Of a stretch of DNA of 32,355 nucleotides, positions 14,422-29,443 are shown piece after piece. This stretch comes from an uncultured Oscillospiraceae bacterium. GTDB lineage: Bacteria; Bacillota; Clostridia; Oscillospirales; Oscillospiraceae. Location: assembly GCA_947626315.1 (NCBI GenBank), contig CANQRQ010000026.1, positions 1-32,355 on the forward strand. The letters run 5' to 3'. Positions within the stretch are counted from its first letter, which is position 1. Each line of letters opens with the position of its first letter. A program made the position numbers and the translations under genes. The notes under the pieces were generated by a model. The model did not search any database. It was not told the origin of the DNA and saw only the letters and a program-made list of their open reading frames with translations.

Positions 14422-14765
14422 GATAAATGAAAGTTTATGTAAGGAAGTAAGTGCGTAGAAAAAATACCTGCCCGGCGGGCCTTGCAGGTATGTGCGTGCG
14501 ACCGTAGGAGCGACTTTTACCAGTGTCTGCACCGGGGTAAACCTGCAGGAAAGACAAAGGGCGACCAGAGAACGGGTCTGCCGTACCCTGCTCCCAGAGG
14601 GGCCCCGGGGAAACATCCCCGGGTGCCTTTTCTTTCGGTTCGCTTTCTTTGCGGCAAGGCAAAGAAAGCGAACAAAGCCACCAAGAGACAAAGCCTAGTT
14701 CCCGCTGGTGACCGAAGGAGACAGGCTGAGAAAGGTATCTTTCCTGCGATAAACTTTCGTTTATC
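14422..14765 (+). repeat. R1 repeat, copy 1 (structured element with terminal inverted repeats)
   Basis: A 344-bp intergenic unit bounded by 16-bp inverted ends (GATAAATGAAAGTTTA 14422-14437 and TAAACTTTCGTTTATC 14750-14765, 15/16 complementary). Its core, 14469-14720, matches the reverse complement of 21160-21412 with about 23 differences in 252 positions by eye (about 91%). Strong internal hairpins: a 15-bp stem at 14638-14652/14659-14673 (TTCGCTTTCTTTGC arm), a 7-bp CCCGGGG stem at 14604-14610/14617-14623, and a TAAAC-TTTC-GTTTA tip at the right end. No credible protein is encoded. It is either a MITE-like element or a gene for a structured RNA. Confidence 0.8.
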
Positions 14766-14854: not shown

Positions 14855-15061
14855 TTATAATGATATATGATGGCGAAACGCCAAAAAGCGTTTCGCCGAG
14901 CAGCTTGGCTGCTCAGCAAAACAGCAGTGCTGTTTTGCCATATACGCATTGCAATGAGCATCGCGCCAATGATTCTTTGAATCATTGGCTGCCAAACTTG
15001 TCGTTTGGCGGCGAAAACAATCGAACTCTCGATTGTTTTTGCTACGCGATCATCATTATAA
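14855..15061 (+). repeat. R2 multi-hairpin repeat, copy A
   Basis: A 207-bp element with perfect 10-bp terminal inverted repeats (TTATAATGAT 14855-14864, ATCATTATAA 15052-15061). The interior is a chain of hairpins with almost no spacing: 14872-14897 (10 bp), 14898-14914 (7 bp), 14916-14938 (10 bp), a CATTGCAATG palindrome at 14947-14956, 14966-14988 (10 bp), 14991-15009 (7 bp) and 15011-15042 (14 bp). The right end overlaps the stop codon of the PMT gene (15056-15058). The inverted partner lies at 16994-17200, also 207 bp and about 95% identical. Confidence 0.88.
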
Positions 15062-15062
15062 T
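15033..15062 (+). promoter_or_regulatory. Promoter-like sequence at R2 copy A end, antisense to PMT
   Basis: TTGTTT (15033-15038), 18-bp spacer, TATAAT (15057-15062) on the plus strand. It faces out of the element into the 3' end of the minus-strand PMT gene, so it would give antisense RNA. Confidence 0.4.
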
Positions 15063-16936
15063 GGCCAGGTGGGGAGCCAGCCCAGCAGCCCGGTGGCCAG
15101 GCTGTTGTCCACCGGCAGGCCGCCCAGAGCGGGGAAGAAGAGGCCGAACAGCAGCAGGCTGACCGCCGTGAAGCTTACCGTATACGGCAGCCAGTTGGGC
15201 CGGTTGAGCTTCATCAGGCGGAACACATAGCAGAGGGCCAGAATAAGGAAGACCGAAGAGGGGAAATAATGGTATTCAAAGGTGATCCGGCGGACGAACA
15301 TCCAGGGGATCAGCTGGGCCAGGTAGCCCAGGAGGATAAAGGCGGCCTTCCGGTCCCGCCGGAAAAGGGCGGTGTATCCCAGTACGAAGAGGCTCAGCAG
15401 CCCGCCCCAGCAGATGGCGGGATTTAAAAAGGCGCAGATAGAGGAGCGGGTGCCGTCGTCAAAATACTCCAGATAGTACAGGATAGGCCGGATATCCAGC
15501 ACCCACTGGTACCAGCGGGAGGCATAGGGGTGCTCCGCGTTCACGCCCAGGTGATAGCTGAGCATGAACTGCTGGTTGTCCCAGACCATCTCCAGATAGT
15601 CCCGGCTGAAAAGGGGAATCCCACGGGCCTGGCCGTAGGGGAAGTAGGACAGATAATAGATCAGACAGGGCAGGAACACGAAAAAGACCATGCAGAACAG
15701 GCAGTTTCCGAAAAAGGCCGGGAGCAGAGGATCCCGTTCCGGCTCCGGGCTCTCTTCCAGCACGGGGCCCTCCTCCGGCACGGGGTCCGCTTCCGCCTCC
15801 GGCTTCCTTCGCGCCCGGACAAAACGTCCGATCCAGTGCAGCAGCCAGAGCACGGCCAGCCCGCCTCCGGCGTAGATGCAGGTCCACTTGCTGGCCGCGC
15901 CCAGGCCGAAGAACAGGCCGGACAGGCCCAGGGCCGGCAGGCTCTCCCGGCTGAGGTACACATACATGCACAAATACATCAGCAGGATGAAAAACACGGC
16001 ATAGGTGTCCACCGTGGCGATACGGGTCTGGGTATAGTGCATGAAGTCCGAGGCGAAGAGCAGCGTGCCCAGGGTGGGCACAGCCCGTCCGCCGAAGAGC
16101 TTTTTGAGAAACAGATACAGCACCGGCAGCATCAGCACGCCGAAAAGGGTCCCCATAAAGCGCCAGCCGAAGGGCGTCATGCCCAGAAGGCGGATGCCCA
16201 GGGAGATGATGATCTTGCCCAGGGGCGGGTGGGAGATCTCATAGGGCCAGATGCCGTTGAGATGCTCCCAGGCGGTGCGGGCGTGGTAGATCTCGTCAAA
16301 GTAGCTGGAGTTAAGGTAGCTCTGGGCGGCGGGGGCGGTCTCCGCCTCGTCGCAGAGCTGTGGGATATCACAGCTGACCGGGATGGGCAGACCGTCCCCG
16401 TCCAGCAGGGTGAGCTCCCCCAGCCAGGGCGTGCCGGAGGTGCAGCGGATCTGAACGTAGCGGGGGCGCATGGAGAGCGCTGGTGTCAGCGCGTGCCACT
16501 TGAGGACGGAGGCATAGTCCTGCTCAAAGTTATAGGCGGCGGTCCAGCTCTCCCCGTCCTCAGAGTAGAGAATTTCATAGCTGCCAGCGTCGATTCCGGT
16601 ATAGAGCATCAGCCGGGAGGGAACGGCGTCCGCTTCCAGGGTGAGACAGGCAGTCCGGCCGTGCATGGGCACGAAGGTCTGGGGGGCGTCCCGGTCCCCC
16701 AGGTTCGTAAAGGCGGGGACGGCATAGGCCCCGGCGATGAGCAGGACCAGCAGCAGGTCCGGCAGCCAGGCGGGAAAGCGCCCCCGGCGTCCGGGCCGGG
16801 GCAGCGGGGAGGAAACCGGCTCCTCCCCCGGCAGCAGGCAGCTTTTCAGGGCCGGAAGCCCGGTGAAAAAAGCGATCAGCAGCAGCGCCGCCGCGATCGG
16901 CAGCGCGTATTCCAAAAGAACTCTCAAAGCGTTCAT
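15056..16936 (-). CDS. PMT-type (GT39) protein O-mannosyltransferase-like membrane glycosyltransferase
   Basis: A 626-residue polytopic GT-C enzyme. After two N-terminal membrane segments (8-30 and 56-78) comes an extracytoplasmic beta-rich section (about 90-200) resembling a discoidin/F5-8C insertion (YEILYSEDGESW, YVQIRCTSG). The catalytic loop follows: Asp214-Glu215 in YFDEIYHAR and HPPLGK 236-241, the PMT signature. A highly acidic cytoplasmic loop lies around 383-406. The family transfers a sugar from a polyprenyl-phosphate carrier to proteins or other exported acceptors; the GT2-GtrA protein at 21518-22609 could make that donor. The gene stands alone on the minus strand between the two R2 copies; its last codons (Leu, TAA) lie at and inside the R2 end. 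A poor ribosome site precedes ATG 16936. Confidence 0.9.
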   Translation of the reverse strand: MNALRVLLEYALPIAAALLLIAFFTGLPALKSCLLPGEEPVSSPLPRPGRRGRFPAWLPDLLLVLLIAGAYAVPAFTNLGDRDAPQTFVPMHGRTACLTLEADAVPSRLMLYTGIDAGSYEILYSEDGESWTAAYNFEQDYASVLKWHALTPALSMRPRYVQIRCTSGTPWLGELTLLDGDGLPIPVSCDIPQLCDEAETAPAAQSYLNSSYFDEIYHARTAWEHLNGIWPYEISHPPLGKIIISLGIRLLGMTPFGWRFMGTLFGVLMLPVLYLFLKKLFGGRAVPTLGTLLFASDFMHYTQTRIATVDTYAVFFILLMYLCMYVYLSRESLPALGLSGLFFGLGAASKWTCIYAGGGLAVLWLLHWIGRFVRARRKPEAEADPVPEEGPVLEESPEPERDPLLPAFFGNCLFCMVFFVFLPCLIYYLSYFPYGQARGIPLFSRDYLEMVWDNQQFMLSYHLGVNAEHPYASRWYQWVLDIRPILYYLEYFDDGTRSSICAFLNPAICWGGLLSLFVLGYTALFRRDRKAAFILLGYLAQLIPWMFVRRITFEYHYFPSSVFLILALCYVFRLMKLNRPNWLPYTVSFTAVSLLLFGLFFPALGGLPVDNSLATGLLGWLPTWPL

Positions 16937-16992
16937 AGCGGTTGTATCTCCGGAAAAATGCGTGATGAAAAGGCAGGGGCCGTTTCGCCCTT

Positions 16993-17022
16993 ATTATAAT
17001 GATTATCGCATAGCGAAAACAA
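16993..17022 (-). promoter_or_regulatory. Promoter-like sequence at R2 copy B end, reading into PMT
   Basis: Minus-strand TTGTTT (17017-17022), 18-bp spacer, TATAAT (16993-16998). The -35 lies in the terminal hairpin of R2 and the -10 straddles the element's edge. The PMT start lies 57 bp downstream. This is the best promoter candidate for the PMT gene. Confidence 0.5.
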
Positions 17023-17200
17023 TCGAGCGTTCGATTGTTTTCGCTGCCAAACGACAAGTTTGGCAGCCAATGATTCAAAGAATCATTGGCGCGATGCTCA
17101 TTGCAATGAGTATATGGCAAAACAGCACTGCTGTTTCGCTGAGCAGCAAAGCTGCTCGGCGAAACGCTTTTGGCGTTTCGCCATTATATAATTATTATAG
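16994..17200 (-). repeat. R2 multi-hairpin repeat, copy B
   Basis: 207 bp, the inverted partner of 14855-15061. One end keeps TTATAATGAT (16994-17003); the other (ATTATTATAG 17191-17200) matches the terminal repeat at 8/10. The hairpins occur in the same order on the minus strand. Most of the interior differences from copy A fall in loops (the second and last hairpins) or exchange A-T, G-T and G-C pairs in stems (third, sixth and last hairpins), so folding is kept. Confidence 0.88.
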
Positions 17201-17279
17201 CCAGCCGGGCCGGAATAGTCAAGGCGGGGGAGAAAACGGCTGACTTTTCCAAAATCCGGCCCCGCCGGCGGGTTTTCTC

Positions 17280-21111: not shown

Positions 21112-21442
21112 GATAAACGAAAGTTTAGCTTCCTAAAAAGGTAGTTTTTCCTCTGCTCGTTTCCTTTGGTCATCAGCGGAAACAGGGTTTGGTCTCTTGG
21201 TGGCTTTGTTCGCTTTCTTTGCCTTGCCGCAAAGAAAGCGAACCGAAAGAAAAGGCACCCGGGGAAGTTTCCCCGGGGCCCCTCCGGGAGCAATGTACAG
21301 CAGATCCGTTCTTAGGTCGCCCTTAGTCTTTCTTGCAGGTTTACCCCGGTGCAGACACTGGCAGAAGTCGCTCCTGCGGTTGCACGCACATACCTACAAG
21401 GCTCGCCGGGCACTTGTTTCCTCCTATAAACTTTCGTTTACC
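21112..21442 (-). repeat. R1 repeat, copy 2 (inverted relative to copy 1)
   Basis: 331 bp with 16-bp ends GATAAACGAAAGTTTA (21112-21127) and TAAACTTTCGTTTACC (21427-21442), 15/16 complementary. The 21160-21412 core is the inverted counterpart of 14469-14720. The 14-15-bp hairpin arm TTCGCTTTCTTTGC and the CCCGGGG stem are identical between copies, while the CCCGGGG loop differs. The two copies bracket about 6.3 kb of glycan genes. Confidence 0.8.
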
Positions 21443-29366: not shown

Positions 29367-29443
29367 GCGCCGTTAGCTCAGCTGGATAGAGCGTCTGGCT
29401 ACGGACCAGAAGGTCAGGGGTTCGAATCCCTTACGGCGTGCCA
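29367..29443 (+). tRNA. tRNA-Arg (anticodon ACG)
   Basis: A 77-nt cloverleaf with encoded CCA. Acceptor arms GCGCCGT/ACGGCGT (first pair G-U), anticodon stem TCTGG/CCAGA with loop CTACGGA (anticodon ACG, normally edited to ICG), and T-loop GGTTCGAATCC. The gene borders an accessory segment that ends in an integrase remnant, as expected for a tRNA attachment site. Confidence 0.97.

Follow-up and report, generated by a model that had tools for sequence, protein, structure and literature searches.

RUP, ERIC, and Correia (NEMIS) elements are miniature inverted-repeat transposable elements (MITEs) of about 100 to 200 bp, with terminal inverted repeats, a short target duplication, stable stem-loops, and no transposase gene. 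End pairing gives their transcripts long stem loops, and the CIR elements of Caulobacter and Brucella, which are intergenic repeats, yield RNA with two arms and a linker, a GANTC motif lying at a loop (as far as the account in PMC2229807 extends). Repetitive extragenic palindromes (REPs) measure 20 to 40 bp (PMC3733652, in excerpt), and the sites of serine recombinases (resolvases and the IS607 family) consist of inverted half-sites around a central dinucleotide (PMC4058570, in excerpt). Here, we describe an element of about 200 bp that occurs as an inverted pair in a 32,355-nucleotide stretch (contig CANQRQ010000026.1) of an uncultured Oscillospiraceae bacterium; the whole of this stretch is referred to as the window. 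The element is mobile and dispersed and inserts cleanly at an AT dinucleotide, and its base pairing has been retained while its sequence changed, both among genomes of one genus and in several other families of that order. The literature searched held no description fitting such a two-cloverleaf bacterial mobile element.

Architecture, insertion sites, and dispersal

The two window copies flank one gene in inverted orientation (14855 to 15061, plus strand; 16994 to 17200, minus strand) and agree in 192 of 204 aligned columns; the pair that had been predicted from the sequence at these positions, with about 95% identity, was thus confirmed at 94.1%. The repeat of the original prediction stood, but its length of 207 bp did not, since the conserved unit spans only ~200 bp (AATGAT...ATCATT, with AT on either side) and the outer TT/AA is only 58 to 72% conserved. 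Across 101 aligned copies, the outermost fixed letter on the left was A in all 101 and that on the right was T in 100, the terminal inverted repeats were of the AATGATTAT...ATCATT type, and the inserted length was 202 in 78 copies. Beyond the AT, T was found in 72 and 58 copies on the left and A in 67 and 62 copies on the right; these outer letters look like a target preference for TT-AT-AA.

The "seven hairpins or palindromes" first described were a fair count, corresponding to six hairpins and a central palindrome around CATTGCAATG. They are arranged as two three-hairpin units, each with AATGA...TCATT as its closing pair, which meet at TCATT-NN-AATGA, where NN was GC, TC, AC, GA, GT, and AT in 84, 11, 3, 2, 1, and 0 of the 101 copies, respectively. 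The features of the two copies are as follows.

14859 to 15057, plus strand: copy 1 (AATGAT...TCATT), inserted at AT
14857 to 14858, no strand: left AT of copy 1 (the left dinucleotide is AT in 95/101 copies)
15058 to 15059, no strand: right AT of copy 1 (the right dinucleotide is AT in 98/101 copies)
14872 to 14897, plus strand: unit A, hairpin 1
14898 to 14914, plus strand: unit A, hairpin 2
14916 to 14938, plus strand: unit A, hairpin 3
14950 to 14951, no strand: central dinucleotide GC joining the units (CATT-GC-AATGA)
14965 to 14989, plus strand: unit B, hairpin 4
14991 to 15009, plus strand: unit B, hairpin 5
15010 to 15043, plus strand: unit B, hairpin 6
16998 to 17196, minus strand: copy 2, inverted
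16996 to 16997, no strand: AT at one end of copy 2
17197 to 17198, no strand: AT at the other end of copy 2

The same genome also contains lone single units with AT at both ends (unit B at locus L221 and unit A at L222) and a copy from which hairpins are cleanly missing (L224). Adjoining copies at L299 have one AT in common. At L310 (G021:C9:46968-47344), hairpin 4 is interrupted by an inverted-repeat stretch of ~180 to 190 bp (GTAAACG...CGTTTAC).

Comparisons between species revealed five sites of clean insertion at a single AT, in the form AT[AATGA...TCATT]AT. These were L112 of genome G062 (empty in G096, G061, and G086, as well as in G083, where the left flank comprises just 11 bases), L091 of G100 (empty in G019, G023, and G080), L127 of G102 (G115 and G092), L160 of G123 (G030, inside a terminator-like hairpin), and L172 of G061 (G093). 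The first four came from 20 joined sites searched in 102 genomes of the genus, among which L104, L106, and 12 others had no spanning alignment. The fifth came from 15 G061 loci searched against G093, eight of which were aligned: one was clean, one (L167) was consistent with AT but had one end mutated and was not clean, and six were too diverged at the junction. Copy 1 of the window, compared with its two nearest relatives (TGGCC-GATATAA in G124 and TGGCC-GCTATAA in G018; more distant relatives differ), was consistent with insertion at AT but was not clean. These sites would look the same whether AT was duplicated or the element entered between A and T with no duplication. Empty sites and target-site duplications had been proposed as a check on a transposon family, and the five clean sites with AT provide them.

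Other target patterns were rejected. A TA duplication of the RUP/ERIC type failed in either register, because T stands on the right at L112 and A on the left at L127; TA was present on both sides in 52 of 101 copies, versus 47.6 expected from shuffled flanks. Duplications of 3 to 10 bp showed no excess except in one four-letter register, of which the fixed end letters are a part (50 versus 43.3 expected), which we read as target preference. Finally, L097 and L117 occupy a promoter-like site with common flanks in two species, in opposite orientations; inversion at one site was rejected because the junctions differ by 3 bp, which points to two independent insertions.

Within its own genome, the query matched over its whole length at 13 places and over 184 of 207 bases at two, with shorter matches in addition. 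A covariance model built from 24 copies was used to search the 102 genus genomes and matched in 56 of them (17 of the 34 high-quality ones); how often the model matched a genome does not give its copy number, as only 23 candidates were scored per genome and a copy may match on both strands. At least 16 distinct places were listed for G062. The opposite strand matches the model as well, with scores that in many copies are about half as high, which indicates that the element is roughly symmetric overall. A search of 394 genomes of the order, with strict filters and six candidates per genome, produced matches in 14, i.e., the genome of origin and 13 others in eight other families. The search for relatives by covariance model that the original prediction had envisaged therefore yielded further copies in 56/102 genomes of the genus and 13/393 others of the order.

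Copies were read from nine of the 13 genomes outside the genus, the weak matches in G221, G398, G416, and G483 being left out. The two-unit layout was common to them, with exceptions: one hairpin in unit B in G209, a longer hairpin in G341 and G283, and different ends in G461. The G461 loci (L364 to L366) hold a distant relative that likewise has two closed three-hairpin units but other ends, AATAAAAACA...TGTTTTTATT.

In G079, six contig ends carry one identical element sequence, loops included, and it is because of this identity that the contigs are broken inside copies; another G079 copy (L306) differs from the identical set. The identical copies are a sign of a recent burst. A blastn search with copy 1 found no match in plasmids or phages, and two exact patterns of the element had no match in IMG/VR. 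With its dispersed copies, its occupied and empty sites, and the identical copies at the six G079 contig ends, the element bears out the non-autonomous transposon family that was among the original proposals.

Conservation of the fold

The plus strand of copy 1 folded better than any of 200 shuffles (z = -11.4 as RNA and -11.1 as DNA; 0/200 as good). Selection on folding had been suggested on the basis of differences between the window copies, said to lie mostly in loops or to swap paired bases. The predominance of loops held, with 8 of the 12 differences at unpaired positions; the other four each alter one side of a stem (one produces A.C, and three involve G.U), and these two copies have no double compensation.

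Wider comparison supported the outcome nonetheless. In 24 copies from 12 genomes of the genus, 98.0% of pairing cells were paired, and 16 of 76 pairs showed double (compensated) changes, compared with a shuffled mean of 7.0 and a value reached in 0 of 500 shuffles. Compensated types were seen at 60 of 76 pairs in 22 copies, in an alignment that was fitted to the model and hence favors pairing, and at 54 of 76 pairs in the 15 copies from seven genomes outside the genus, several of these copies sharing one genome. Divergence among copies within the same genome (14 genomes) was 4.6%, 5.4%, 14.5%, and 33.6% in hairpin stems, closing stems, other sites, and loops, respectively, i.e., 7-fold higher in loops than in hairpin stems. 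Stems were thus kept in homologs of the genus and of other families.

That loops vary and stems hold may mean either that selection for the fold acted on the lineages from which these young copies descend or that the copies are constrained in place. The only common insertion among the loci compared was L103/L152, with near-identical flanks, and we therefore favor young descendants. The flanks of L103 (G097) and L152 (G115), in two species, are 100% and 97.2% identical over 500 bp, which reflects recent transfer or contamination.

Structured RNA is what covariation across families usually signals. In the plus-strand fold of the 24 copies, G.U and A.C each occupied 17 cells, whereas 6S RNA from 28 genomes of the genus, given the same treatment as a control, had 158 G.U and 3 A.C. 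Hairpin stems of seven genomes with at least five copies deviated from the majority of their own genome by 61 double Watson-Crick changes, 20 G.U and 17 A.C (both one-sided), 9 other one-sided changes, and 7 of other kinds, and the 75 pairs present in the folds of both strands had 16 G.U versus 15 A.C. Because G.U and A.C were about equally frequent in stems, unlike in 6S RNA, we favor a fold kept at the DNA level; a minus-strand RNA may also have a role. Mobile DNA with cross-family covariation and little strand asymmetry in its stems suggests that folded DNA is itself selected. Covariation alone, with G.U and A.C left uncompared, would have led us to call a noncoding RNA. If the DNA fold is selected, the family offers a natural data set on which DNA hairpins are required by an enzyme, and it could lead to a recombination system that targets AT.

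Favored mechanism and competing explanations

In our judgment, this is quite probably a non-autonomous, mobile, MITE-like DNA element made of two three-hairpin cloverleaf units closed by AATGA...TCATT. An enzyme encoded elsewhere would recognize the AATGA ends and join them to an AT dinucleotide within AT-rich DNA, preferably TT-AT-AA. The reaction, or the survival of the element, would require folded DNA, as single-stranded hairpins or a cruciform; a need for folding would explain why pairing is conserved while loops are free. A serine recombinase acting at the central dinucleotide can be put forward tentatively as the enzyme, while a single-strand HUH/Y1-type enzyme acting on the hairpins and a DDE transposase making a 2-bp duplication are, taken singly, each on the unlikely side.

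Several observations weigh against a MITE-like element selected for its DNA fold. No mobilizing enzyme was found among DDE_3 and Y1 genes (serine recombinases and most DDE families were not searched), and no autonomous partner with the same ends was seen at lone ends in the genome of origin, at G079 contig ends, or among neighboring open reading frames, in a survey that was not exhaustive. Gene families next to the element recur at no more than three other loci. Y1 genes overall were no commoner in genomes carrying the element (31/56) than in noncarriers (25/46), and only 1 of 20 loci with RAYT-like genes (stretches of 3 to 6.5 kb) had the element. Clean empty sites were obtained at only four of the 20 junctions, with that of L123 ambiguous, and L131, whose left dinucleotide is mutated to AG, fits AT in G019 but not in G023. 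Hairpin-templated repair could be a partial source of stem conservation; the loops of hairpin 4, TTT in 22 cases and AAA in 21, suggest inversions. Over all 101 copies, moreover, G.U outnumbered A.C (84 versus 55; P = 0.017, ignoring relatedness), and the consensus fold of the minus strand had 71 G.U versus 19 A.C (23 versus 18 for reversed 6S RNA), 55 of the 71 coming from four of the nine pairs unique to that fold.

An element of the serine recombinase type, with crossover at a central AT between AATGA half-sites and a non-AT element center that prevents recombination there, is a possibility to be held tentatively. Serine recombinase crossover sites have such an arrangement, with inverted half-sites on either side of a central dinucleotide (in the excerpt of PMC4058570). 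The dinucleotide in the central TCATT-NN-AATGA was never AT in the 101 copies, whereas joined ends would give TCATT-AT-AATGA; the AT shared by the adjoining L299 copies and the weak target preference also fit. On the other hand, the target side offers only TT/AA, the hairpins are left unexplained, and no recombinase was identified, none having been searched for. A resolvase cleaves TTATAA at its central AT; a literature search for TTATAA resolvase sites gave nothing.

It is doubtful that we are dealing with an ordinary MITE, in which the terminal repeats are acted on by a standard DDE transposase, 2 bp of the target are duplicated, and the internal hairpins are irrelevant, being kept only by templated repair of palindromes. 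In size, terminal repeats, preference for an AT-rich target, and proximity to gene starts, the element is as expected of one, the signs of hairpin inversion make template switching plausible, and hairpins are cleanly missing in L224. However, templated repair alone would be expected to let stems drift by double changes at nearly the loop rate, and the observed rate was 7-fold lower. IS630-type DDE_3 genes were present in 6/56 carriers versus 11/46 noncarriers and in neither the genome of origin nor G079 (other DDE families were not searched); an association with IS630 was rejected on these counts.

Single-strand transposition by a RAYT-like HUH/Y1 enzyme, which would recognize the hairpins and insert between A and T in the manner of REPs and REPINs, seems rather unlikely. 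It would suit a hairpin chain maintained by pairing, and divergent Y1 proteins with weak Pfam matches, which we take to be RAYT-like from their motifs, were encoded in 23/56 carriers versus 7/46 noncarriers (P = 0.005, uncorrected for kinship and with the category set after the list was seen). Yet 33 of 56 carriers showed no gene of this class, no copy lay beside the RAYT-like genes at 19/20 loci, and to our knowledge, inverted terminal repeats are not expected of HUH/Y1-type elements. The divergent RAYT-like genes (L383 to L402) number several per genome in places (G123 and G061) and have variable internal stretches, e.g., RRGDPCGRP.

A host module (structured RNA, 5' untranslated region, or terminator) that is also able to spread is improbable: 68/101 copies have, on one side or both, a ribosome-binding site and start codon no more than 150 bp away (per side, 0.41 versus 0.19 in the control), a few sites are at promoters, and G.U predominates in the minus-strand fold, but neighboring starts show no orientation bias (38 versus 44 by side in 101 copies), 46/102 genomes of the genus have no match, and G.U and A.C are balanced on the plus strand (17/17), among own-genome deviations (20/17), and on the 75 common pairs (16/15). 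The structured RNA gene of the original prediction is accordingly not favored, the contrast with 6S RNA (158/3) adding to the lack of orientation bias, even if the minus-strand counts leave room for an RNA role. An Rfam scan of the window at the gathering score detected only the tRNA gene at 29367 to 29440, and the elements had sub-threshold matches only (E of 2).

By the features examined, the element is best filed among bacterial MITEs as a distinct form: its chain-of-hairpins fold is kept in distant bacteria, and the TA subtype of MITE is ruled out. The chance that its mechanism is new is a real one, and folded DNA may be what transposes. A whole new class of mobile element is conceivable but doubtful; in it, folded tandem-cloverleaf DNA rather than two short ends would be the transposition substrate, with pairing inherited across the order, AT recombination between AATGA half-sites, and a non-AT center that blocks internal recombination.

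Genomic context and relation to known systems

Three further features of the window concern the gene between the copies.

15056 to 16936, minus strand: flanked gene, PMT-like glycosyltransferase, with its TAA stop (15056 to 15058) within the end of copy 1
17194 to 17199, minus strand: predicted -10-like TATAAT, completed by the end of copy 2
17217 to 17222, minus strand: predicted -35-like TTGACT, 17 nt from TATAAT

The TTGACT/TATAAT pair is located upstream of the PMT-like gene that ends in copy 1. Judged from sequence, the effects of the -10 box and the stop codon on host genes are probably incidental. General promoter insertion was rejected, since the excess was small: only 6/201 ends had a -35 sequence matching in 5/6 positions or more at a spacing of 17 nt (other spacings from 0 to 59 had 0 to 4 each). 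The "transcription/mRNA-stability module" of the original prediction therefore survives at single sites and not as a general role. Frame-preserving insertion was likewise rejected: 202 is no multiple of 3. No frame was open throughout in 77/101 copies, one or two being open in the other 24 versus 9% of shuffles.

The window contains a second inverted repeat pair of a different family (14462 to 14733 and 21148 to 21419; 272 nt, 89% complementary), with relatives at G000:C7:10007-10318 (95%) and in L045 of G124. Elsewhere in the genome, similar genes at L213 (around G000:C5:26022) and L218 (around G000:C6:104235) each contain a unit close to the 3' end, in the same position in both, and their frame runs into the element at ...Y-N-D; presumably, these genes encode phage-type integrases, given the motif TTLDIY.

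The original prediction had set the element apart from clustered regularly interspaced short palindromic repeats (CRISPR) and from REP/BIME sequences, and both distinctions stand. Unlike CRISPR arrays, which have identical direct repeats and spacers, the element consists of hairpins without spacers, and the window has no direct repeat of at least 40 bp (shorter ones were not searched for). It resembles REP, BIME, and REPIN sequences in being dispersed hairpins near genes, with RAYT-like genes in many carriers; it differs, as far as the excerpt of PMC3733652 describes REPs, in its size of about 200 bp, its terminal repeats, its insertion at AT, and its absence from 19/20 RAYT-like loci. The half-site and dinucleotide layout is like that of serine recombinase crossover sites as excerpted in PMC4058570, with no recombinase linked to the element and none searched for. 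To the extent that PMC2229807 covers them, CIR elements have two arms, as the element has two units, but these are single arms with GANTC, whereas each unit of the element comprises three hairpins. The same account makes RUP, ERIC, and Correia elements similar in small size, absence of a transposase gene, terminal inverted repeats, and stem-loops; where they have TA at their ends, the element has AT, and it is further distinguished by two three-hairpin units with compensation across families.

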